Positions 5,668 through 19,806 of a DNA stretch of 64,000 nt are shown piece after piece (within the stretch, counting starts at the first letter, position 1; each line of letters begins with the position of its first letter). Source of the DNA: an uncultured Sulfitobacter sp. (GTDB taxonomy: Bacteria > Pseudomonadota > Alphaproteobacteria > Rhodobacterales > Rhodobacteraceae); the NCBI GenBank assembly GCA_913060815.1, contig CAJXSZ010000001.1, positions 369,645-433,644 of the forward strand, in the 5' to 3' direction. The position numbers and the translations under genes were made by a program. Below the pieces are notes generated by a model. The model was not told the DNA's origin. It ran no database searches and was given only the letters and a program-made list of their open reading frames with translations.

Positions 5668-6675
5668 TCAGGGCAGGGGAGACCCAGCCCGCATGCGCGC
5701 CAGCACATCCACGCCCTGACCCGACAGCCAGTGCAGCAGGTCGATGAACACCCAATTCTCAGACAGCTTGTCGCCGCCGCGGCGGTAGATGTCTACCACG
5801 CGAAACTCACCCGCCTTGCCCGTGGCGGGCAGGCCCATGAAGCCACCTGTGGCCTCGGCAGTGAAGTTTGGCCAGCCGAAAAAGCCGCCGAATTCGCCTT
5901 CGGCCAGACGACACAGGTGCCCTGTGCCTGTGCGATTTGTGAAACCGGCGCGAAACGGGCCAGCATGTTGCTCGGCATATCTTTGGATCGTGTAGGTGGC
6001 GCCGATCCCCGCAGGCCCCCACCAGACCATGTCTTCGTTCCACGTGCGCGCCAGCTCCTCCACCAGCGGCAGGCCAGACTGCCACGTGCCCAGATCGTTG
6101 ATCATCGCATTGATCACGGCAAGGGTCTTCTCGCCCTCAGAGGGGGCTTGGGGTGCGTCCATCACGCCGTTGTGCGTGGCAGGGCCAGGCTGGACCAGAT
6201 GCGCTGCGGTCTGGGGCGGGAAGGGGTTTACGCCTGCTTGCATCATCAAATGCGGGATGTCGCAGAACATCGCAGCCTCGGTGACGCGGCCATTCTCTAC
6301 TTTGCAAAACTCGGCATAGCGCAGGAATGTCATCCTGCGCGTGGGCGGAATGCCCAGCCAGTGCGCGTCATGCAGGCCCATCATATGGCCCATCGAGACG
6401 ACCCAAACGCTCTCGAATCCGTCCATCTGATTCCGCCCTGCCATGAAGATATCCTCACGGCGCGAGAGCGAGGTGAGTGCGGTTTTGAGCGGGCTCCAGA
6501 AGGTGTCGGCCACACTTTCTGCGCCGTTCTGGATGTAGAACGGATGCATCCCGCGCCATAGAAAATCGGTGCTCACATGCGGGGCAAGGGCGGAAGCCAC
6601 ATCCCCCGCCGAAGCCCTGTCCAAAGCAGCCTGATAGGCGCGGACAACCGCTTTTGCGTCTTGAAGCTCAGACAT
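5668..6675 (-). CDS. SnoaL/NTF2-like protein with two tandem SnoaL-like domains
   Basis: MSELQDAKAVVRAYQAALD...; two SnoaL-like halves with WLGIPPTRRMTFLRYAEFCKVENGRVTEAAMFCDIPHLMMQAG and FMGLPATGKAGEFRVVDIYRRGGDKLSENWVFIDLLHWLSGQGVD. Start chosen at ATG 6675. Confidence 0.75.
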   Translation of the reverse strand: MSELQDAKAVVRAYQAALDRASAGDVASALAPHVSTDFLWRGMHPFYIQNGAESVADTFWSPLKTALTSLSRREDIFMAGRNQMDGFESVWVVSMGHMMGLHDAHWLGIPPTRRMTFLRYAEFCKVENGRVTEAAMFCDIPHLMMQAGVNPFPPQTAAHLVQPGPATHNGVMDAPQAPSEGEKTLAVINAMINDLGTWQSGLPLVEELARTWNEDMVWWGPAGIGATYTIQRYAEQHAGPFRAGFTNRTGTGHLCRLAEGEFGGFFGWPNFTAEATGGFMGLPATGKAGEFRVVDIYRRGGDKLSENWVFIDLLHWLSGQGVDVLARMRAGSPLP

Positions 6676-6679
6676 TGGA

Positions 6680-7567
6680 TTATCCTTTAACAGCGCCTGC
6701 GGTGAGGCCACTGACGATCTGGCGTTGGAAGAAAAGGATCAGCACGAAGAGTGGCGCTGTGGCCGAGATTACGGCAGCTACGGCGAACATCACGTTGCCC
6801 TCCACCTGCGTCGAGCCAAGGAAGCTGGCGATCTTGGGGATCATCGTCTGGTTCTCCTGATTGAGCAGCAGGGCGGTCACGACAAAGTCGTTATACGCAA
6901 GCAGGAAGGAGAACAGCCCCGTCGTGATCACACCGGGCCACATCACAGGCACGATCACATGGCGAAAGGCCTGAAACCGTGTGCACCCGTCGACCATAGC
7001 GCTCTCGTCCAGATCCTTGGGGATGTTGAGAAAGAAGGAATGAAGCATCCACAGGGTGAACGGCTGGTTGATTGCGACCAGAACGATGATCGAGGTCGGG
7101 ATATAGCCCCAGAGGTTCCATTCGAAAAACGGCACCAGATAGCCCGAGACCAGCGTGATATGCGGCATCGCGCGAAACACCAAAGCCAGCATCAGCAGCC
7201 AGAAGGCATAGCGGTAGCCCGAGCGCGCCAGCGCGTAGCCGCCCAGCGTGCCAAGGGTGAGGGAGATGATTACCGTGAAGAAGACGATAATCCCTGTATT
7301 CATCGCAGCGCGCCAGAATTCCTTCTCGATCCACGCGCCCTCATACCCCGCGCCCGTGAAGGGGCCGCCTGTTTCAATCAGGGTGCGCGTGCCGTAGATC
7401 GCATTGCGCCAGTCGGCTTTGGAAAAGAAATCCCCCTGCACTTTGAACGATCCCCAAAGCGTCCAGAGAAACGGAAAGGCGGCCACGATGATCCACGTGA
7501 TCACCAGTATGGACGAGACGATGACAAGTGTGCTCGAGCGTTTTGTTGATGCTGCGGCCATGGTCAA
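6680..7567 (-). CDS. Carbohydrate-type ABC transporter permease (MalG/UgpE-like)
   Basis: Multiple TM segments; EAA-like loop DLDESAMVDGCTRFQAFRHVIVPVMWPGVITTGLFSFLLAYNDF. Confidence 0.88.
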   Translation of the reverse strand: MTMAAASTKRSSTLVIVSSILVITWIIVAAFPFLWTLWGSFKVQGDFFSKADWRNAIYGTRTLIETGGPFTGAGYEGAWIEKEFWRAAMNTGIIVFFTVIISLTLGTLGGYALARSGYRYAFWLLMLALVFRAMPHITLVSGYLVPFFEWNLWGYIPTSIIVLVAINQPFTLWMLHSFFLNIPKDLDESAMVDGCTRFQAFRHVIVPVMWPGVITTGLFSFLLAYNDFVVTALLLNQENQTMIPKIASFLGSTQVEGNVMFAVAAVISATAPLFVLILFFQRQIVSGLTAGAVKG

Positions 7568-8592
7568 ACCACCTTTCGGTTAAAGTCGCGCCATGTGCGG
7601 ACCAGCACAGGCGTCAGCAGGATTGCTACGCCAATAACGGTCAGCACGGATGTGGCCGCGGCCGAGGCGTATTGCACATTGTCGCCCAGCAGATCGCCGT
7701 AAATCTCGGTCGAAAGCGATGAGGCATTGGCCTGCGCCGAGAAGCCGATGATCGGCTCAAGCACGCGAAAGTTGTCCATGAGCTGGATAAGCGCCACAAA
7801 AACAAACAGCGGCCCCATATAGGGCACGACGACATAACGGATACGCTCCCACCGCGAGGCACCGTCGATCATAGCGGCCTCAAGCGTCTCCTCGGGCACG
7901 CCTTGCAGGCCTGCATAGAAGACCACAAAGGCAAAGGGGATGCCCGACCAGACACCATAAGTAAACAGGGTAAGCCACGTCAGCAAGGGCGAGGCCTTGA
8001 GAGAGAGGGCAGGATCGTCAAACACCCATTGCAGCGCCTTACCCAGAATACCGTCCGCATCAATCATCCAATAGAGGATCAGCGAGCCGACCAGCGGCGT
8101 TACGATCATGGGCAGCAATGATATAAAGATCGTCGGTCCTTTGGTCAGCTTTGGCAGGTTGTTCACGCCAAGCGCCACGGCAAGGCCCAGCAGAATGACC
8201 AACGGTGTGACAACAGCCGTGTAGGCCATCGTGAACGCCAGTGCTTTATAGAAAGGCAGATTCATCAGCTTCGAGCCGAAACTCGCGAGCCCCGTGGAGC
8301 TGCGCCACGCCTCTGCCACCTCGGCTGTAGCCAGATGGTTGCGGCTGAGATAGGTGCCGAGCCCGTTCCATTGGCCCAAAGGTGCGGCTTCTTTGAGGAG
8401 GGCTGTCGCTTCGAGGTCAACGGCGGTGCTGGGGGTGCAGCCGAAGGGGCCGCAGCTCTCTGTTGTGATGATGACTTGCTCGTGCTCGATGTGGAGCGAT
8501 TGGATCACCACAGAGACAAGCGGAAAGGCGATGAACAGCAGCATCGCAAGGGCGGAGGGGAGGATGAACCAGAAAAACGTACGATGTGGCAT
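7564..8592 (-). CDS. Carbohydrate-type ABC transporter permease (MalF/UgpA-like)
   Basis: TM segments; EAA loop VPEETLEAAMIDGASRWERIRYVVVPYMGPLFVFVALIQLMDNFRV; 4-nt overlap with the downstream permease gene. Confidence 0.88.
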   Translation of the reverse strand: MPHRTFFWFILPSALAMLLFIAFPLVSVVIQSLHIEHEQVIITTESCGPFGCTPSTAVDLEATALLKEAAPLGQWNGLGTYLSRNHLATAEVAEAWRSSTGLASFGSKLMNLPFYKALAFTMAYTAVVTPLVILLGLAVALGVNNLPKLTKGPTIFISLLPMIVTPLVGSLILYWMIDADGILGKALQWVFDDPALSLKASPLLTWLTLFTYGVWSGIPFAFVVFYAGLQGVPEETLEAAMIDGASRWERIRYVVVPYMGPLFVFVALIQLMDNFRVLEPIIGFSAQANASSLSTEIYGDLLGDNVQYASAAATSVLTVIGVAILLTPVLVRTWRDFNRKVV

Positions 8593-8663: not shown

Positions 8664-9902
8664 TTACTGGAGAAAGCCCTGCGCTGTCGCAGCCGTCGTG
8701 TAGGCAGCGGTCACGTCAGCGAGCGCCTGCTCGGCTGATTCCGAGCCTTGCAAGAACTCGGCCAGATTCTCACCCAGAGCCGTGTGCATCAGGCCTACAT
8801 AGGGCAGCATGGGGTAGGGGCGCGCGCCTGACTGGGCAGAAGCCACAACACCTGCGGATGCTGGTGTCGCCTGATATGCAGGGTTCAGCCAGACGGCCGC
8901 GTCCTGATTGGCCTCGACCACCTCGGTGGCCAGACCTGCCATCATCGCCTGAAAGCTGGCGGCGGCGTCTTCGTCAGAGATGTTGGTCGCGATTGTGAAG
9001 CCGTCCCACCACAGAGTGGTCGCAGGGATCGCGTTGCCGCCGAATGTGGGCGCCGCTGCCAGAACTGTCGAGCTTACGATAGACGCGTCAGAGCCTTCGT
9101 CGTCGAGGATCGGACCACCGCGTGAGCCCCACATAACCGACAATGCTGTGTCGCCTGCTTCCCAAAGCGCCTGCGTGGCGTTGGAATCGAAGGTCAGGAA
9201 GTCGGGATTGGAATAGGCGGTCAGCTCCTTGAGCATGTTGAGCGCGGCCACGCCGTTCTCGTTCTCGATGCTGGCGTTGGCAGTACCTGCCTCGAACAGC
9301 TCACCGCCAGTACCCATGTACATGTTGATGAACTCTTCCGCGAGGTTCCAGCCTGCGCCGGTGTTCAGCGCGACAGGCGTCTCCATGATGCCAGCGGCGC
9401 GGATGGCTTCCGCCGCGGCGACGACTTCTTCGTAGGTGGTTGGCACTGCAACACCGGCCTGTTCGAGGATATCCGCACGATAGAAGAGGTGCTGCGCGTT
9501 GGCCATGAAGGCAACAGCCATGACTTTGCCATCTACCGTGACCTTGTTCACATTTGGCAGATCGGGCGCATATTGTGCGATCAGATCATCAAGCGGGCGG
9601 ATCAGACCGTCATTGAGCAGCGGCACGATGGAGGAGTTGGCGATCACAGCAACGCTGTATTCAGCAGGGTTGCCCGTCATGCCGGGCGCATTGAGCGTCT
9701 GATGCTCTTTGGTGAGGTTCGCGGTAACAGTAACCCCGTCACCCGCGCAGGCCTTGGCCGCTTCCGAGATTGCCTGAATGGCGGGGAAGTCATTGGCGAT
9801 GATGGATACATTTCCTGCTGCGATGCCGCAGCCCGCGATAGCTGTTGTGCCCGACAAAACGGCGAAAGCTGTCCCGAGAGCGGCTGTCTTAAACATGTTC
9901 AT
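8664..9902 (-). CDS. ABC transporter extracellular solute-binding protein (family 1)
   Basis: Signal peptide MNMFKTAALGTAFAVLSGTTAIAGCG; solute-binding protein features PLDDLIAQYAPDLPNVNKVTVDGKVMAVAFMANAQHLFYRADILEQAGVAVPTTYEEVVAAAEAI. Confidence 0.87.
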   Translation of the reverse strand: MNMFKTAALGTAFAVLSGTTAIAGCGIAAGNVSIIANDFPAIQAISEAAKACAGDGVTVTANLTKEHQTLNAPGMTGNPAEYSVAVIANSSIVPLLNDGLIRPLDDLIAQYAPDLPNVNKVTVDGKVMAVAFMANAQHLFYRADILEQAGVAVPTTYEEVVAAAEAIRAAGIMETPVALNTGAGWNLAEEFINMYMGTGGELFEAGTANASIENENGVAALNMLKELTAYSNPDFLTFDSNATQALWEAGDTALSVMWGSRGGPILDDEGSDASIVSSTVLAAAPTFGGNAIPATTLWWDGFTIATNISDEDAAASFQAMMAGLATEVVEANQDAAVWLNPAYQATPASAGVVASAQSGARPYPMLPYVGLMHTALGENLAEFLQGSESAEQALADVTAAYTTAATAQGFLQ

Positions 9903-10006: not shown

Positions 10007-10020
10007 TGCATACGTGTGCA
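10007..10020. promoter_or_regulatory. Putative LacI-family operator 1 (TGCATACGTGTGCA)
   Basis: Imperfect palindrome centred on CG in the divergent SBP/ATPase intergenic region; closely resembles TGCAAACGTATGCA at 10131-10144. Confidence 0.5.
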
Positions 10021-10130
10021 AGTAAATTCGCAAATACCCGGTTCTAGCAAGCGTTTTCTCTCTACTGGTGAATTTTCAGGCACCAGAAAAAAAAGAGTTG
10101 ATAGAGGTAAAGATTCCTGCGTTGATTGCG

Positions 10131-10144
10131 TGCAAACGTATGCA
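10131..10144. promoter_or_regulatory. Putative LacI-family operator 2 (TGCAAACGTATGCA)
   Basis: Imperfect palindrome with central CG, matching operator 1. It lies just upstream of the ATPase GTG start at 10157. Confidence 0.5.
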
Positions 10145-10156
10145 GGAGGGCACGCC

Positions 10157-11197
10157 GTGGCCGAGGTTCAACTACGCAATATCTCCAAAAGATGGGGCAA
10201 CTTTTTCGGGGTCGCTGATTTTGACCTGACCATTGCGGACCGCGAGTTTCTGGTGCTGCTGGGGCCGTCGGGCTGCGGGAAGACAACGACCATGCGTATG
10301 ATTGCTGGGTTAGAGGATGCGTCGGGCGGAGACATCCTGATCGATGGCAAGCGTATCAATGATCTTGACCCCAAGGACCGCGATGTGGCGATGGTGTTCC
10401 AGAGTTATGCGCTTTATCCCAATATGAATGTCTATGAGAATATCCGCTTTCCGCTGAAAGTACGCGGCATCCCGCAGGGTGAGCACGACGAGCGGGTACG
10501 CCGCGCCTCTGCCATGGTGGAGCTTGACGAATTCCTGCACCGCCGCCCCGCCGAATTGTCAGGCGGACAACGCCAGCGCGTGGCACTTGCCCGTGCCATC
10601 GTGCGTGAGCCGAATGTGTTTTTGATGGATGAGCCGCTGTCCAATCTCGACGCAAAGCTGCGCGTCTCCACCCGTGCGCAGATCAAGAACCTGAGCCATG
10701 AGTTGAAGGTCACCACCATTTACGTGACCCACGACCAGATAGAGGCGATGACACTGGCCGACCGTGTGGTGGTGATGAACGGTGGCGTGGTCCAGCAGGT
10801 GGGCACGCCTACGGAAATTTATGACTGCCCCGCGAACGCCTTTGTCGCCAGCTTCATTGGCAGCCCTGCGATGAACCTGATGGAGGGTAAGCTAGAAAGC
10901 GGCACTTTCACAGCGCCAAACGTGCAGATCAGCGGCCTAAGTGGACCTGACGGGCCATGCACACTCGGCTTTCGCGCCGAGGATGCGAAAGCGGCGGAGG
11001 CAGGCGAGGTGAGTGCGCCGATCTACTCGCTCGAGCTTTTGGGTGATGCCACGATGGTCACAGTCAAATCAGGCGGCGCGTTGGTGTCCGTCAAAGCGCA
11101 TAAAGAATTCCGCGCAGAAATTGGCGCGCCGTTTTCCGCCGCCATCTCCTCCGAGATTTGCCACCTGTTTCACAGCGAGACAGGCGAGCGCCTTTAA
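10157..11197 (+). CDS. ABC transporter ATP-binding protein (UgpC/MsmK-like)
   Basis: Walker A GPSGCGKTTTMRMIAGLE; signature LSGGQRQRVALARAIVREPNVFLMDEPLSNLDAKLR. Start placed at GTG 10157 (VAEVQLRNISKRWG) with a good upstream RBS (GCAGGAGGG); the ORF-track start at 9962 looks too long. Confidence 0.9.
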   Translation: MAEVQLRNISKRWGNFFGVADFDLTIADREFLVLLGPSGCGKTTTMRMIAGLEDASGGDILIDGKRINDLDPKDRDVAMVFQSYALYPNMNVYENIRFPLKVRGIPQGEHDERVRRASAMVELDEFLHRRPAELSGGQRQRVALARAIVREPNVFLMDEPLSNLDAKLRVSTRAQIKNLSHELKVTTIYVTHDQIEAMTLADRVVVMNGGVVQQVGTPTEIYDCPANAFVASFIGSPAMNLMEGKLESGTFTAPNVQISGLSGPDGPCTLGFRAEDAKAAEAGEVSAPIYSLELLGDATMVTVKSGGALVSVKAHKEFRAEIGAPFSAAISSEICHLFHSETGERL

Positions 11198-11215
11198 TCA
11201 TCAAGGTATATTTGA

Positions 11216-12526
11216 ATGACAATCACCCATCTGAAATCAGGAAAACCCGAGTCCGAACGCGCCGAAGATGACGCGGCCGTGCGCAAAACGGTTGAGGCTA
11301 CGCTCGCCGATATCCAAGCTCGCGGCGATGCCGCCGTTCGGGAACTGTCGGCCAAGTTCGACAAATACGAGCCCGAGAGCTTCCTGCTCAATGCCTCCGA
11401 GATTGAAGCGGCCATGCAAAAGGTCTCCACGCGGGATATGGAGGACATCAAATTCGCCCAGACCCAGATCCGCACCTTTGCCGAGGCGCAGCGTGCTTCC
11501 ATGACCGATATCGAGGTCGAGACGATGCCAGGCGTGGTGCTGGGCCACAAGAACATCCCCGTGCAATCCGTGGGCTGCTACGTTCCGGGCGGCAAGTTCC
11601 CTATGGTGGCGTCTGCGCATATGTCCGTCCTAACCGCTACCGTAGCAGGGGTGCCGCGTATTGTGGCCTCCGCGCCGCCCATGAACGGCGCGCCGCATCC
11701 TGCCATTGTGGCGGCGATGCAGTTGGGCGGGGCGCATGAGATCTACGTAATGGGCGGGATGCAGGCCGTGGGCGCTATGGCCATCGGCACCCAGACGATT
11801 GATCCCGTGCACATGCTGGTAGGGCCAGGCAACGCGTTCGTGGCGGAGGCAAAGCGCCAGCTTTATGGCCGCGTCGGCATCGATCTGTTCGCTGGCCCGA
11901 CCGAAACCATGGTGATTGCGGACGAGACGGTTGACGCAGAGCTATGCGCCACCGATTTGCTCGGGCAGGCAGAGCACGGTTACAACTCGCCCGCCTGTCT
12001 CATTACCACAAGCCGCAAACTGGCCGAGGAGACTTTGGCCGAGATCGACCGCCTGCTGGAGATCCTCCCCACGCGGGAGACGGCCTCCATCAGCTGGCGT
12101 GATTACGGTGATGTGATCGTCTGCGACACCCATGACGAGATGCTGCAGGTGGCCAATGATATGGCCTATGAGCATGTGCAGATTATGACGGACCGTGATG
12201 ATTGGTATCTCGAGCAGATGCACAGCTATGGCGCGCTGTTTCTGGGGCCGCGCACCAATGTAGCCAACGGCGACAAAGTGATCGGTACCAACCACACGCT
12301 GCCCACGAAAAAGGCAGGGCGGTACACGGGCGGCCTTTGGGTCGGCAAGTTTCTCAAGACCCACAGCTACCAGCGTATTACCTCAGATGCCGCAGCAGCG
12401 CAGATCGGCGAATATGGTTCGCGCCTTTGCATGCTCGAAGGGTTCGTGGGCCATGCCGAGCAATGCAATGTCCGCGTGCGCCGGTATGGCGGTAAGAACG
12501 TGGCCTACGGGACGGCGGCGGAATGA
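11216..12526 (+). CDS. Histidinol dehydrogenase-family protein (possibly sulfopropanediol/polyol dehydrogenase-like)
   Basis: HisD-family segments [73 protein letters not shown] and [19 protein letters not shown]. Sits in a catabolic operon, not a his operon. Confidence 0.85.
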
Positions 12527-13548
12527 CCCTTCACGCTGCACTGAAGCCTTTGCAGAAGGCATTGGCGACGGCGACGGCGGAAGACGTGCAAAAAGCGCTC
12601 AAAGTCATCGCGCCCGACGCCGTGATCCACATGTGCCACCCGTTTGGTGATATCGACGCTACAGACGTCTATGACACGCTCTATGCCCCGCTCATGGATG
12701 CAATGCCTGATCTGGAACGGCGCGATATGGTCACCCTGACCAATGTGACGCCTGAGGGGGAGACATGGGTCGGCTGCATGGGCAATTACATGGGCACGAT
12801 GCTGCGCCCGTGGCTGGATATCCCGCCCACGGGGCATCTCACCCACATGCGCTATCACGAGTTCTTCCGCATAGAGGAGGGCCGCGTCACCCAAGCGCAG
12901 ATTATCTGGGACATCCCCGAAGTAATGATGCAGGCCAGCGCATGGCCAATGGCGCCACAGCTGGGCAAATACCTCGCTACGCCTGCGCCTATGACCCAAG
13001 ACGGATTGGTCGCGGAGGGCGATGGCACCGCAACGATGGACCATGTGATCGCCATGCTGACCGATCTGTGCAAATACCCCTCCAACCCCGATCCTGCGGT
13101 GATGCAGCTTGAGACCTACTGGCATCCGCGCAGCAATTGGTACGGGCCTGCAGGCATCGGCACGGGGCGCGGTATCGCGGGGTTCCGCAACTGGCACCAG
13201 ATACCGTTTCTCAAAGCAATGCCTGATCGCAAGCTTGATGCGCTGGGCGATCTGATGTCCCATTGGTTTGCCCAAGGTGACTACGTCTGTGAAACAGGTT
13301 GGCCCAACATGCGCCTCACCGTAAGCGCAGGAGAATGGATGGGGCTGGCCCCTGCGGGACGCGAAATACTGATGCGCAGTCTTGATTTCTGGCGCGTTGA
13401 GGATGGGCTCATCCGCGAGAACTGGGTGCTGGTGGACCTTTTGGACGTCTACCGCCAATTGGGCGTAGATGTTTTCGCCCGCATGCGCGAATTTAACAAG
13501 GCCCGCAATCTGGGGCCAATCACGCTGCCTGAGGGAGAATTTACATGA
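12523..13548 (+). CDS. Tandem SnoaL/NTF2-like domain protein
   Basis: Two SnoaL-like halves ([93 protein letters not shown]); ATGA overlap with upstream gene. Confidence 0.8.
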
Positions 13549-14309
13549 GCTTGCCGCAAACTCCGAGCTTTCGCCTTGAGGGCAAGCGGGCTTTGGTCAC
13601 AGGGGCAAGCTCGGGCATTGGCCTCGCAGCCGCAGTTGCTCTGGGGCAGGCGGGGGCGGATGTGGTTCTGGTCGCGCGCGGGGCGCAGGCGCTGGACGAT
13701 GTCTGGAACCAGATGACGGCGGCGGGCTATACGGCTACGGCCCTGCAACTCGACATTACCGATCTGGCTGCCACGCAGGCCGCAGTGGAGGCACAGGGCC
13801 CGTTCGACGTTCTGGTCAACTCGGCAGGGTTGGCGCGCCATTCTGCGGCTGTGAATACAACGCCCGAAGACTACGATGCCGTCATGGACGTGAACCTGCG
13901 CGCAGCCTATTTCCTGACCCGCACAGTTGCGGCAGGGCTGATCGCTGCAGGCAAAGGCGGCAGCCTCATCAATATATCTTCGCAGATGGGCCATGTCGGC
14001 GGGATCGAGCGCGCAGTGTACTGCGCCAGTAAACACGCGCTCGAGGGGATGACCAAATCCATGGCGATCGAATGGGGCAGCAGGGGCATCCGCGTCAACA
14101 CGCTGTGCCCTACGTTCATCCGCACGCCGCTGGCCGAGCAGACACTCAAAAATCCTGAACGCCGCGCTTGGATCGAGAGCATGATCAAGCTGGGACGCGT
14201 GGGGGAGATCGAGGACATGATGGGCCCCGTGGTCTTTCTGGCCTCTGACGCCTCGGCGCTGATGACGGGCGCGAGTTTGCTCATTGACGGAGGTTGGACA
14301 GCTGACTGA
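13545..14309 (+). CDS. Short-chain dehydrogenase/reductase
   Basis: Rossmann motif ALVTGASSGIGLAAAVALGQAGADV; catalytic YCASKHALEGMTKSMAIEWGSRGIRVNTLCPT; ATGA overlap with upstream gene. Confidence 0.9.
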   Translation: MSLPQTPSFRLEGKRALVTGASSGIGLAAAVALGQAGADVVLVARGAQALDDVWNQMTAAGYTATALQLDITDLAATQAAVEAQGPFDVLVNSAGLARHSAAVNTTPEDYDAVMDVNLRAAYFLTRTVAAGLIAAGKGGSLINISSQMGHVGGIERAVYCASKHALEGMTKSMAIEWGSRGIRVNTLCPTFIRTPLAEQTLKNPERRAWIESMIKLGRVGEIEDMMGPVVFLASDASALMTGASLLIDGGWTAD

Positions 14310-15328
14310 TGGCTGAGGGGAAAGTCACATCTTTGCACGTTGCGCGCCGCGCAGGTGTGAGCCAGTCGGCTGTGAGCCGCGTGTTCTCTGGTGCGTCCGC
14401 CTCCGAGCAGACAGTGCGCAAAGTGCGCAAGGCAGCCGAGCATCTGGGCTATCGCCCTAATCCGCTTGCCCGTGCCATGATCACAGGGAAAAGCAAGATC
14501 ATCGGTCTGGTGGTCGCTTATCTCGATAATCAATTCTATCCGCTGGCGCTGGAGCATTTGTCCAATGCGCTGCAGGAGCAAGGGTATCACGTGCTGGTCT
14601 TCATGGCGCCCAACGATGAAGCGGCGGTCGAGAAGGTGGTGCATGACCTGATGGACTATCAGGTGGCGGGGATCATCACAGCCAGTGTCGGCATGACGAA
14701 CGACCTGACGCAGCGCTGTACGGATGCTGGTATTCCTGTGGTGATGTTCAATCGCGGGCAGGACGGTAGCGGCATTTCCTCGGTCACATCCGCCAACGTT
14801 GCGGGCGGTGCGCAGATTGCAGATTTTCTTGTGGCGGGCGGGCATACACGCATCGCACATATCGCAGGGTGGGAAGGCTCTTCCACAGGCCGCGACCGCC
14901 AGCGTGGATTTACAGACCGTTTGGCGCATCACGCTATGGAGTCTGTCGCCATCATTGACGGTCATTTCGACCGCGAGATCGCGGCACAGGCCACACGCGA
15001 CATCATGGCAGGACCACAGCCCGCAGACGCCATATTTGTCGGCAATGACCATATGGCATTTGCGGTCATGGATACGCTGCGCAGCGAATTGGGCCTGTCC
15101 GTTCCTGATGATGTGTCCGTCGTGGGCTATGACGATGTGCCGCTTGCGGCATGGGCCGCGTATGATCTGACAACGCTGCGCCAGCCGCTTGTCCGTATGG
15201 TCGAGGCGACGGTCGACACGCTGCTGGCCAAGATTACAGACGCAGCGCGCCCCGCACAAAAAATCGAAATCGAAGGGCCATTGATCCTGCGCGGATCGGC
15301 GAAAATACCAGAAGGATGGACAGCGTGA
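14309..15328 (+). CDS. LacI family transcriptional regulator
   Basis: N-terminal HTH VTSLHVARRAGVSQSAVSRVFSGASASEQTVRKVRKAAEHLGYRPNPLARAM; sugar-binding-protein-like C-terminal domain. Confidence 0.9.
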   Translation: MAEGKVTSLHVARRAGVSQSAVSRVFSGASASEQTVRKVRKAAEHLGYRPNPLARAMITGKSKIIGLVVAYLDNQFYPLALEHLSNALQEQGYHVLVFMAPNDEAAVEKVVHDLMDYQVAGIITASVGMTNDLTQRCTDAGIPVVMFNRGQDGSGISSVTSANVAGGAQIADFLVAGGHTRIAHIAGWEGSSTGRDRQRGFTDRLAHHAMESVAIIDGHFDREIAAQATRDIMAGPQPADAIFVGNDHMAFAVMDTLRSELGLSVPDDVSVVGYDDVPLAAWAAYDLTTLRQPLVRMVEATVDTLLAKITDAARPAQKIEIEGPLILRGSAKIPEGWTA

Positions 15329-16314
15329 AGGGTTTCTCAGACAGGTTCGAGGATTTTCCCGATTATATCTTGGGCATTACCAAGGAGATCTGGGAGGACC
15401 GTGGCATTGCCACGCTGCACCACTATTATGCCCCCGATCTTGTCGTCCGCTCCCCTTCATCGGTAGTGGTTGGCAACGAGAACGTCATCGGAGCCACTAT
15501 GGCCACGCTGGCCGAATTTCCTGACCGCACGCTTCTGGGGGAAGATGTGATCTGGTCCGGTACACCCGAGGAGGGCATGCTGTCCTCGCACCGCCTGTTT
15601 TCTACCGCGACGCATCTTGGCGACGGGGTCTACGGTAAGGCCACGGGCAAAAAGCTGGTCTACCGGATCATCGCCGACTGCCATGCGATCAATGACCAGA
15701 TCAACGATGAATGGCTCATCCGCGATCAGGGAGCCATTGTGCGCCAGATGGGATGGGACCCTGCCGACTATGCCCGCAGCCTCATCGAGAGCGAAGGCGG
15801 ACCCGAGAACGCGGTGCAGCCATTCACGCCTGCTATCGACAAACCCGGACCGTACAAGGGGCGCGGCAATCATAACGAGTGGGGCACACGCTATGCCGAT
15901 CTGCTGACGCGGATCATGGGCGCGGATATGGCGGCGATCCCCGCTGTTTATGACCGCGCTTGCCAGCTCGAATTGCCGGGCGGTGTAACCGGCCACGGCT
16001 GGGGTGATGCCGACCGCTTCTGGATGGGCCTGCGCGCAGCCTTTCCTGATGCAAAGTTTGAAATCCATCACGTGATTGGCCGCGATGATCCGACCCTGCC
16101 ACCCCGCGCGGCGGTACGGTGGAGCCTGCATGGCAAGCATTCAGGCTGGGGTGATTTTGGCAAGCCTACGGGCGCCGAGGTCCACATCATGGGCATCAGT
16201 CACGCCGAGTTTGGTGCGATAACAGGCACCGAGCCCAAACTGCGCCGCGAATTTGTAAATATTGACGAAACCGCGATCTGGAAGCAGATCCTTTTGCGCA
16301 CAGGTGCTCTATGA
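15316..16314 (+). CDS. SnoaL-like protein (nuclear transport factor 2 superfamily), divergent third paralogue
   Basis: FSDRFEDFPDYILGITKEIWEDRGIATLHHYYAPDLVVRSPSSVVVGNENVIGATMATLAEFPDRTLLGEDVIWSGTPEEGMLSSHR is SnoaL-like; a second SnoaL-like half follows. Overlaps the lacI-like gene by 13 nt. Confidence 0.7.
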   Translation: MDSVKGFSDRFEDFPDYILGITKEIWEDRGIATLHHYYAPDLVVRSPSSVVVGNENVIGATMATLAEFPDRTLLGEDVIWSGTPEEGMLSSHRLFSTATHLGDGVYGKATGKKLVYRIIADCHAINDQINDEWLIRDQGAIVRQMGWDPADYARSLIESEGGPENAVQPFTPAIDKPGPYKGRGNHNEWGTRYADLLTRIMGADMAAIPAVYDRACQLELPGGVTGHGWGDADRFWMGLRAAFPDAKFEIHHVIGRDDPTLPPRAAVRWSLHGKHSGWGDFGKPTGAEVHIMGISHAEFGAITGTEPKLRREFVNIDETAIWKQILLRTGAL

Positions 16315-17279
16315 CCCCGCAACAGATGAACGAACGCATCGTCCGATACGGCGAATTGCGCCCTTGCAAAACCGCCTTTATCGACGCCCACACGCCTGGC
16401 TCGGACCAGAAAGAGAACTTCACCATCATCGGCGGTGGCGTCTCGGAAAGCCCTGACCAGCACGTGCACATCGCCATCCCGCACGGGTTTAACATCGGGG
16501 CCGCAGGCCAGCCGCCCCATTGCCGCAATTCCCTGCACAATCACCGTACGGCGGAGGTGTTTTTTATCCTCTCGGGTCGCTGGCGCTTTTTCTGGGGGCA
16601 GCATGGGGACGCGGGTGAGGTCATCCTCGAGGAGGGTGACATCTTCAACATCCCGACCAATATGTTCCGTGGCTTCGAGAATGTCGGAACCGACTATGGA
16701 ATGATCATGGCGATCCTCGGCGGGGATGATGCAGGCGGTGGTGTGATCTGGGCGCCCCATGTGATCGAGGATGCGCAAGCGCACGGCCTCGTGCTGGGCG
16801 ACAACGGCAAGCTTTATGACACCAAACAGGGTGATGCGCTGCCAGAAGGCGTCTCTCCGATGCCCGTGCTGACACAGGCCGAACTGGCGACGGTCAACAC
16901 GCCAACCCCTGCGCAAGTGGTCGGCGGCTATGTGCGCCGCTACCTTGATATGCTGGCGCTTGCGACCAGTGGTGATCCCGTGAAAGTCATCGGCGAGACA
17001 GGGCTCATCCGCGACAAGCCCGGATTTGACGTTGATCTCATCACCCGCGATTGCGCGACAGACGCCCCCCACAGCCATGACCGCCCGTCAGTCCTGATGC
17101 CGGTGAAAGGGCATTGGAAAGTGACATGGGACGGCGGCGACACCGTACTCGCCCCTGGTGATACGATGTCGGTGCCCGAGGGGTTGAGCCACGCAGCGGT
17201 TCCGTCGATGACTGGAGAAGCCGCGCTTTACCATGTGGTCGCCACCAATGACGCCGCTGGCCCCACGTGGGAAGGATAA
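16311..17279 (+). CDS. Bicupin domain protein
   Basis: Two cupin motifs: HCRNSLHNHRTAEVFFILSGRWRFFWG...GDIFNIPTNMFRGFENVG and HSHDRPSVLMPVKGHWKVTWDGGDTVLAPGDTMSVPEGLSHAAV. Confidence 0.8.
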   Translation: MTPQQMNERIVRYGELRPCKTAFIDAHTPGSDQKENFTIIGGGVSESPDQHVHIAIPHGFNIGAAGQPPHCRNSLHNHRTAEVFFILSGRWRFFWGQHGDAGEVILEEGDIFNIPTNMFRGFENVGTDYGMIMAILGGDDAGGGVIWAPHVIEDAQAHGLVLGDNGKLYDTKQGDALPEGVSPMPVLTQAELATVNTPTPAQVVGGYVRRYLDMLALATSGDPVKVIGETGLIRDKPGFDVDLITRDCATDAPHSHDRPSVLMPVKGHWKVTWDGGDTVLAPGDTMSVPEGLSHAAVPSMTGEAALYHVVATNDAAGPTWEG

Positions 17280-17282
17280 AAG

Positions 17283-18404
17283 ATGACTGTACTAACAACC
17301 CATGTAGGCTCGCTGCCCCGCTCTCAGGAAGTAGTGGATTTCATTTTTGCGCGCGAAAACAACACGCCCTTTGATCAAAGTGCTTTTGACGCGGCGATGA
17401 CATCCGCCGTCTCGGACACGGTGGCCAAACAGGTCGCAGCAGGGGTCGGGATCGTGAGTGACGGCGAGACTTCCAAGATAAGCTATGCCACCTACGTCAA
17501 AGACCGCTACACTGGATTTGATGGTGACAGCCCGCGCAACGCGCCAGCGGACCTCAAGCAATTCCCGGGCTTTCTCAAGCGTCTTGCCGAAGGTGGCGGC
17601 ACGCCCAAATACGCGCGGCCCATGTGTGTAGGTGAAGTCAAATCCAAAGGGCAGGGCGAGCTGGAAAAGGACATCGCAAACCTCAAGGCGGCGATGAGCA
17701 CGCATGGGGCCGAGCGCGGTTTCATGAACGCGGCCTCGCCGGGGGTGATCTCGCTTTTCCTGCAAAACGATTTCTACAAAACCCGTGAAGCCTATCTCAC
17801 TGCTCTCGCCGATGCGATGAAGGCGGAATACGAGACGATTGTCGCCTCTGGTCTAGACCTGCAACTTGATTGCCCCGATCTCGCACTCTCGCGGCATATG
17901 CTTTTCAATGACCTCACAGATGCGGAATTCGTGAAGATCGCCAACAGTCACGTCGAAGCGCTCAACCATGCGCTGTCGGATATTCCGGAAGAGAAGGTCC
18001 GCATCCACATTTGCTGGGGCAACTACGAGGGGCCGCATGTCTGTGACGTGCCCATGGCCACGATGTTTGACACACTTATGTCCGCTAAAGCGCGTTATGT
18101 TCTGTTCGAGACATCCAACCCCCGTCATGGCCATGAATGGACAGTGTTCCGCGACCGCAAGGGAGATATTCCCGATACAAAAGTGCTCGTGCCGGGGGTG
18201 GTCGACACCACCACCAATTTCGTCGAGCATCCCGAACTGGTGGCCCAACGGATTGACCGCTTTACGCCGTTGGTGGGCCACGACCGTGTGATCGCAGGAT
18301 CAGATTGCGGTTTCGGCACCTTTGCGGGCTTTGGCGCGGTCGACCCTGACATTGCCTTTGCCAAGCTCAAAGCGCTTTCGGACGGGGCAGCGCTCGCCTC
18401 ATGA
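17283..18404 (+). CDS. MetE C-terminal domain-like / cobalamin-independent methionine synthase family protein (epoxyalkane:CoM transferase-like)
   Basis: THVGSLPRSQEVVDFIF; HICWGNYEGPHVCDVPM; C-terminal ELVAQRIDRFTPLVGHDRVIAGSDCGFGTFAG. Confidence 0.8.
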   Translation: MTVLTTHVGSLPRSQEVVDFIFARENNTPFDQSAFDAAMTSAVSDTVAKQVAAGVGIVSDGETSKISYATYVKDRYTGFDGDSPRNAPADLKQFPGFLKRLAEGGGTPKYARPMCVGEVKSKGQGELEKDIANLKAAMSTHGAERGFMNAASPGVISLFLQNDFYKTREAYLTALADAMKAEYETIVASGLDLQLDCPDLALSRHMLFNDLTDAEFVKIANSHVEALNHALSDIPEEKVRIHICWGNYEGPHVCDVPMATMFDTLMSAKARYVLFETSNPRHGHEWTVFRDRKGDIPDTKVLVPGVVDTTTNFVEHPELVAQRIDRFTPLVGHDRVIAGSDCGFGTFAGFGAVDPDIAFAKLKALSDGAALAS

Positions 18405-19099
18405 CACTGCCGCTGATCCTGCTGCCTGGCATGATGTGCGATGCACGCTTGTTTGCGCCGCAAGTTGAGACGTTAGGCGCGCAGCGCGCGGTCAAAGTTG
18501 CGGATATCAGTGGGCTTGAAACGATGCACGATCTGGCGGCCGCCGTGCTTGCGGATGCGCCGCCTGTATTCGCGCTGGGCGGTTTGTCGATGGGCGGGAT
18601 CGTCGCGATGGAGATGGTGCGACAAGCGCCCGAGCGTGTGGCCAAGCTTTGTCTGATGGACACCAATCCGTTGGCGGAAACGGAGCAGGTCGCAGCCCGC
18701 CGCGCACCCCAGATTGAAAAGGCGCAGGCAGGCCAGTTGGACGCCGTGATGCGCGACGAGATGAAGCCGAACTACCTTACCGACGGTCCAAACCGTGCGG
18801 CGATCCTTGATCTATGCATGGAGATGGCCTTGGACCTTGGGGCGGAGGCCTTCGTGCGCCAATCAAAGGCCCTGCGCGCGCGACCGGACCAATCCGAAAC
18901 CCTGCGCGACGTCACTGTGCCAACGCTGATCCTATGTGGGCGCGAGGACAAGCTTTGCCCCGTGTCGCGCCATACCCTAATGCACGCGTTGATGGCGGGG
19001 TCCATGCTTGAGATCATCGAAGGGGCAGGGCATCTGCCCACGCTGGAACAACCTGAGACAACAACGGCGGCACTGGTCCGCTGGCTGGAGAGAGAATGA
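18401..19099 (+). CDS. Alpha/beta hydrolase
   Basis: LPLILLPGMMCDARLF; nucleophile elbow GGLSMGGIVAMEM; late acid/His LILCGREDKLCPVSRHTLMHALMAGSMLEIIEGAGHLPTLEQPE. Confidence 0.85.
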   Translation: MTLPLILLPGMMCDARLFAPQVETLGAQRAVKVADISGLETMHDLAAAVLADAPPVFALGGLSMGGIVAMEMVRQAPERVAKLCLMDTNPLAETEQVAARRAPQIEKAQAGQLDAVMRDEMKPNYLTDGPNRAAILDLCMEMALDLGAEAFVRQSKALRARPDQSETLRDVTVPTLILCGREDKLCPVSRHTLMHALMAGSMLEIIEGAGHLPTLEQPETTTAALVRWLERE

Positions 19100-19806
19100 C
19101 AAAAGACGTTCTGGACGACACGCTGCTGGCGCTTTTGCGCAGCGTGGATACACCGACGGTTTGTAATGCGATCGAGGTCGCACAGGGCAAGCGCGGGTTT
19201 GATGCGTTTACCCGTGGCACGATGCTGTGCTCGGACACCGATGGCGGTGCGATGGTGGGCTATGCGGTCACGGCCAAGATTGCCGCTGTCGAGCCACCGT
19301 CTGAGGCGCCCGACGTAATCCGCGCACGGCGCATGGCCTATTACAAAGCAATGGCAGAGGGGCCAAAGCCTTCGGTCGCCGTTGTTGAGGATCTCGATTA
19401 TCCCCACGCCATTGGTGCCTATTGGGGAGAGGTGAACACTACCATCCACAAGGGGTTCGGAATGTCTGGCGCGCTGACCAACGGGGTGATGCGCGATCTG
19501 GGCGATATGGCCGAGGGCTTTCCCGTGGTCGCAGGCTCCATCGGGCCGAGCCACGGGTTCGTGCATGTGCGCGAGATTGGCACGCCTGTGACGATTTTCG
19601 GCATGACTGTCGCGCAGGGTGATCTAATCCATGCCGACCGTCACGGCGCGGTTGTCATCCCGCCAGAGGTTGTCGGGCAACTGGGCGCTGCGATTGCCAA
19701 GATGCAGGAGACGGAGAAGCTGGTACTGGAGCCTGCGCGCACGGCAGGCTTTGACTTTGCAGCGTTCGAGAAAGCATGGGCTGCCTTTGAAAAATCGCGC
19801 ACCTAA
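19096..19806 (+). CDS. RraA family protein (dimethylmenaquinone methyltransferase-like / HMG-CHA aldolase-like)
   Basis: TPTVCNAIE, GYAVTAKI, GALTNGVMRDLGDMAEGFPVVAGSIGPSHGFVHV, GDLIHADRHGAVVIPPEV. Confidence 0.82.
   Translation: MTKDVLDDTLLALLRSVDTPTVCNAIEVAQGKRGFDAFTRGTMLCSDTDGGAMVGYAVTAKIAAVEPPSEAPDVIRARRMAYYKAMAEGPKPSVAVVEDLDYPHAIGAYWGEVNTTIHKGFGMSGALTNGVMRDLGDMAEGFPVVAGSIGPSHGFVHVREIGTPVTIFGMTVAQGDLIHADRHGAVVIPPEVVGQLGAAIAKMQETEKLVLEPARTAGFDFAAFEKAWAAFEKSRT

Follow-up and report, generated by a model that had tools for sequence, protein, structure and literature searches.

A conserved operator pair predicted to place divergent importer and catabolic genes of Rhodobacterales under a local LacI-family regulator

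Two near-identical palindromes separate an ABC importer arm from a divergently transcribed catabolic operon that encodes a LacI-family protein. The computed results are the sites themselves, how well they are conserved, their constant position with respect to -35-like boxes and their co-occurrence with this LacI. Comparison of orthologous loci indicates that the LacI-family repressor encoded at 14309-15328 very probably uses the two palindromes as its operators, and that each covers the probable start of one of the two divergent promoters. The predicted local control of both arms by this protein is well supported.

Two palindromes and the gene arms around them

In the 64 kb stretch of DNA that was analysed (the window), predicted operator 1, belonging to the left arm, occupies positions 10007..10020 (TGCATACGTGTGCA) and predicted operator 2, belonging to the right arm, positions 10131..10144 (TGCAAACGTATGCA), where it abuts the Shine-Dalgarno sequence of the ATPase gene; neither site is assigned to a strand. 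Both 14-mers are palindromic in 6/7 base pairs and have CG at the centre, with a centre-to-centre distance of 124 bp. The first-pass annotation had reported near-identical imperfect palindromes with a central CG, 124 nt apart, and its coordinates proved exact. No other 14-bp palindrome of such quality occurs in the intergenic region, nor do longer ones (16-20 bp with at most one mismatched pair). A single CG-centred 6/7 palindrome has a chance expectation of 0.07 in such a region, and when the 254-bp region was shuffled 3000 times with its dinucleotides kept, at least two turned up in 0.17% of the shuffles. The main text of Ravcheev et al. 2014 (PMC4052901) describes LacI-family motifs as mostly even palindromes with a central CG and local regulators as mostly autoregulated; the earlier assignment of the two sites to the LacI-type operator form agrees with this norm.

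The left arm runs on the minus strand from 9902 down to 5668. It begins with a solute-binding protein (SBP; 8664..9902, minus strand; PF01547), continues with ABC permease 1 (7564..8592, minus) and ABC permease 2 (6680..7567, minus), and ends with a SnoaL-like double-domain protein (5668..6711, minus; PF07366). Both permeases are open reading frames that are conserved neighbours in the orthologous loci, where their orthologs are annotated as sugar ABC transporter permeases. The right operon occupies the plus strand from 10157 to 19806. Its first gene encodes an ABC ATPase of the UgpC/MalK type (10157..11197, plus; NF008653, 440.5 bits, above cut-off) and starts with GTG at 10157, preceded by the Shine-Dalgarno sequence AGGAGG at 10144-10149 directly against site 2. 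There follow, all on the plus strand, a HisD-like dehydrogenase (11216..12526) whose nearest solved relatives are the DHPS 3-dehydrogenases HpsN, a SnoaL-like protein (12523..13548; profile match), a short-chain dehydrogenase (SDR) of KduD/HpsO-like type (13545..14309) and the LacI-family regulator of 339 aa (14309..15328). The remainder (15316..19806) encodes SnoaL-like, bicupin, MetE-like, alpha/beta hydrolase and RraA-like proteins, as assigned from open reading frames, profiles and the annotation of the orthologous Octadecabacter genes. The ends of the right-arm genes mostly overlap, and both arms are bounded by convergent genes. The flanking genes are as the first-pass annotation had placed them, an SBP/permease arm on one side and an ATPase-HisD-like operon encoding LacI on the other. 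The cluster holds three SnoaL-like double-domain proteins (5668-6711, 12523-13548 and 15316-16314), and relatives carry more copies.

The LacI protein has an N-terminal helix-turn-helix domain (PF00356, 41.5 bits, cut-off 27) and a C-terminal, periplasmic-binding-protein-like effector domain (PF13377, Peripla_BP_3, 104.7 bits, cut-off 26.5). Its recognition helix reads VSQSAVSRV, and it is the presumed binder of both operators. A hydrophobic hinge residue (Leu in the PurR and LacI structures) wedges into the central CG step. In the orthologs the hinge is ARAM or ARSL, the Met aligning with the hinge Leu of RbsR 9ny7. The lacI gene would be expected to be transcribed from the right-arm promoter, because it overlaps the end of the SDR gene and lacks an operator of its own. 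Only two other LacI-family genes occur in the genome, with the recognition helices TATVSRC and EMTVSRV. Among 298 sampled Rhodobacteraceae genomes, 127 encode a relative of this LacI at E <= 1e-60.

Conservation of the sites alongside the regulator

Scanning the LacI protein against 84,980 genomes yielded 80 orthologous loci (64-89% identity), nearly all of them from Rhodobacterales and Roseibium and with the same gene set. The recognition helix VSQSAVSRVF is present in 80/80 orthologs. Where the SBP and ATPase genes diverge (38 regions, the window included), 36 carry two sites of at least 13 bits, a threshold that gives one match per 1.08 Mb of shuffled sequence. In all 36 the order is the same, site 1 upstream of the SBP gene and site 2 just before the ATPase gene. 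The other two are Ruegeria loci with one site of at least 13 bits plus weaker, altered ones. In these two (L062 and L083) the degenerate sites are arranged differently, two of them lying close to the ATPase gene at a distance of 20 bp, and the LacI helix is unchanged.

Taking all architectures together, a site of at least 13 bits is found in each of the 64 loci that have the ATPase gene with at least 150 nt upstream, and 57 of them carry at least two, leaving seven with a single site; these loci are related, so the counts are not independent. The site model was built from the divergent loci, which form part of the test set, and the SnoaL/ATPase, betaproteobacterial and rhizobial loci lay outside the training. 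An untrained core, TGCANNCGNNTGCA, is present in 59/64 loci. It has 112 matches outside cluster genes (525 kb), two inside them (896 kb) and none in the control loci (317 kb). The window's own two sites score about 20 bits, below most sites of its relatives. One further locus (L048) keeps lacI, the SDR gene and one SnoaL-like gene, with neither a transporter arm nor a site within 21 kb, and is a possible remnant.

In rearranged clusters the site stays in front of transcription units. Where a SnoaL-like gene and the ATPase gene diverge, a pair of sites 54-56 bp apart flanks the promoter. In Roseibium hisD begins a separate unit, and a third site precedes it. Sinorhizobium medicae has sites before the SBP gene, the cupin gene and one additional unit. 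Delftia and Cupriavidus have just the core hisD-SDR-lacI, with two copies of the operator 26 bp apart before hisD. The LacI proteins of Sinorhizobium, Delftia and Cupriavidus are 48-55% identical to that of the window, with the same helix (VSQSAVSR) and the same operator. On a plasmid of Octadecabacter arcticus (L139) the left arm is rearranged and transposase genes are nearby; both operators before the ATPase gene are still recognisable (13.3 and 21.8 bits).

Eighteen loci with a HisD-like gene (74-86% identity), from genomes without an ortholog of this LacI, served as controls. The site is absent from 17/18 of them. The transporter arm, too, is missing from most of these loci, so the comparison does not isolate the regulator as the variable. 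In the one locus that does have a site (L103), a LacI carrying the helix VSQSAVSRAF is encoded at a distance of about 6 kb. At L107:9788-9927, two sites that resemble the operator pair and are spaced 126 bp precede a nitrate/sulfonate-type ABC importer; the genome concerned has no ortholog of this LacI and encodes LacI proteins with the related helix VSRSAVSRTF.

Taken across the loci, the motif recurs near orthologous clusters in 64/64 testable cases and also beyond the Alphaproteobacteria. The first-pass annotation had further suggested local control of both arms, and this gains from the same counts, from the absence of the site in nearly all LacI-less loci and from the invariant helix.

Within the genome the sites appear to be confined to the cluster. 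No further place in the window lies within one mismatch of the joint pattern of both sites, and across the 3.5 Mb genome TGCANACGTNTGCA is matched exactly at these two sites only. Eight other places match TGCANACGTNTGCA with one mismatch (the reversed control pattern gives five). They are mostly coding; of the two exceptions, one precedes a carA-like gene and the other lies between two open reading frames on contig C14. A wider regulon in the same genome was rejected on these grounds, as the count is near that of the control and none of the places is at a related gene.

Candidate promoters and a proposed repression switch

When the loci are aligned on the operators, CTTGC stands 29-31 nt before operator 1 in 34/36 loci and a CTTGC-like box 30-33 nt before operator 2, again in 34/36; both are oriented towards the arm that they would serve. 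We take this box to be of the kind found as the -35 element of alphaproteobacterial sigma-70 promoters. In the window the candidate -35 of the left (SBP) promoter is TTGCTA (10045..10050, minus strand) and the candidate -10 is a weak TTTACT (10021..10026, minus), which touches operator 1 and is proposed from a consensus match only. For the right (ATPase) promoter the candidate -35 is TTGATA (10098..10103, plus), matching 3/5 positions of the CTTGC-like box, and the candidate -10 is a likewise weak TTGATT (10122..10127, plus), placed by the position of TANNNT in relatives. A simple consensus promoter scan of the window alone returned nothing, the promoters being visible only in the operator-anchored alignment. 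Since an 18-nt spacer puts the end of the -10 element 0-3 nt before the operator, the start site would fall inside the operator. Depending on the locus, the two operators are 103-158 bp apart, in one case 212 bp; the distance from the -35-like box to the operator is fixed.

We propose steric repression of two divergent promoters of sigma-70 type, which is the simplest mechanism. Site 1 would cover the start of the leftward SBP-permease-permease-SnoaL arm and site 2 that of the rightward ATPase-HisD-SnoaL-SDR-LacI-SnoaL-cupin-MetE-like-hydrolase-RraA arm. When substrate is absent, a LacI dimer on each operator would block RNA polymerase. Binding of the importer substrate, or of an early breakdown product, to the sugar-binding-like domain would release the repressor, and release would turn on both arms together. 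As a gene of the right arm with no further operator ahead of it, lacI would be subject to the same switch, so that LacI would be expected to limit its own synthesis. In this scheme protein binding, repression as the sign of control, the start sites and ligand release are what we infer.

The same LacI and operators might instead repress through a DNA loop joining the bound dimers, as GalR does at E. coli gal. This had been raised in the first-pass annotation, and we consider it unlikely. Two operators lie 124 bp apart in most divergent loci, and most spacings found here are 121-125 bp, with two of 103 bp; GalR loops at 113 bp, and repression is best at 103, 113, 123 and 133 bp (PMC4693257). However, spacings of 118, 126, 146-147, 158 and 212 bp occur as well, and the 12 distinct spacings show no significant phasing with the DNA helix (R 0.38, p about 0.17 at 10.5 bp/turn). 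Seven loci have a single site, and a loop is unneeded when either promoter has its own operator. The LacI orthologs end at about residue 339 (ILRGSARIPEGW...; overall about 338-343 aa) and lack the C-terminal leucine-heptad tetramerisation helix of the E. coli LacI type, although GalR is a dimer yet loops at 113 bp (PMC4693257). With a range of 103-158 bp (once 212 bp), phasing short of significance and an operator for each arm, the looping suggestion finds no support.

Dual effects are known in the family, GalR at OE repressing P1 and activating P2 (PMC4693257), so that LacI could act from these sites as an activator or with mixed effects. This is improbable, as the two sites follow the -35-like boxes and overlap the expected starts, the position of a steric block. 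Motif similarity alone does not name the binding protein, and the operators could be real with a different DNA-binding protein of the genome as their main regulator. We regard this as highly improbable, since the helices of the two other LacI-family proteins differ and since, in different genera and classes, the site is found together with this LacI. There is next to no likelihood that the palindromes are chance sequences without function. One CG-centred 6/7 palindrome is not very rare, but two together have a probability of about 0.002 in the intergenic region alone, and both sequence and place are conserved in 64/64 loci; on conservation and shuffles together, a chance origin was rejected. 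Steric repression by the LacI encoded in the right arm thus stays the preferred reading.

The pathway and its relation to known systems

The gene content gives some indication of what the cluster is for. The SBP has weak matches to sugar-binding proteins, including SmoF, which binds sulfoquinovosyl glycerol. The HisD-like enzyme shares 47% identity with HpsN, the DHPS 3-dehydrogenase of R. pomeroyi (8wwe), which is below the level of 62.9% at which HpsN proteins have been grouped (PMC11382572). Routine annotation of 11216-12526 would give histidinol dehydrogenase; the protein is nearer HpsN than HisD. It belongs to a subfamily of its own, present in 139/298 sampled Rhodobacteraceae genomes. 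The SDR (13545-14309) is nearest the KduD type, with HpsO lower, and the operon annotation contains no HpsP-like gene. Identity with a DHPS (hpsNOP) cluster was rejected on the 47% identity of the HisD-like enzyme to HpsN and the lack of HpsP. No solved relatives of the cupin and MetE-like proteins were found, and a literature search returned no description of this cluster. Judging from the predicted enzymes, the substrate is most likely a hydroxylated compound that is oxidised at a primary alcohol.

The cluster may be one instance of a widespread, undescribed regulon, in which this LacI and a near-invariant operator control a hisD-like/SDR core in alpha- and betaproteobacteria, marine Rhodobacterales adding the ABC importer and the SnoaL, cupin and MetE-like enzymes, for what is probably a common hydroxylated compound. 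We regard this broader proposal as evenly balanced. The work replaces a vague importer annotation with a defined regulon, and the operator can be used to find co-regulated genes in many genomes. Marine roseobacters, rhizobia and betaproteobacteria share the hisD-like/SDR/LacI/operator core, which points to a catabolic pathway that is as yet uncharacterised. The pairing of operator and LacI offers a direct route to the inducer and hence to the substrate.

This is a new regulon within the well-known class of local LacI regulons. With those set out in the main text of Ravcheev et al. 2014 (PMC4052901) it shares a regulator beside its targets, an even palindrome with a central CG, autoregulation through a common operon, and the combination of an importer with catabolic enzymes. 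The main-text passages searched in that study describe GapR as a regulon of Rhodobacteraceae and do not contain the present one, which has a TTGCATACGTATGCAA-like motif.

In Ruegeria pomeroyi, DHPS catabolism is under the control of a LacI-family protein, HpsR (SPO0590; PMC4334477). In both systems, each from a marine alphaproteobacterium, a LacI-family gene neighbours genes for a HisD-like dehydrogenase (HpsN in R. pomeroyi) and an SDR (HpsO in R. pomeroyi); the two were compared by gene content. The HpsR cluster has a TRAP transporter, HpsP and slcD, whereas the present one has a CUT1-type ABC importer, three SnoaL-like proteins, a cupin, a MetE-like protein and RraA.

The GalR operators OE and OI at E. 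coli gal (PMC4693257) resemble the present pair in lying about 11-12 helical turns apart and serving two promoters. At gal the promoters overlap and point in the same direction, and of the two operators one is upstream and the other within galE. The present promoters, in contrast, are divergent, with a separate operator at the predicted start of each.
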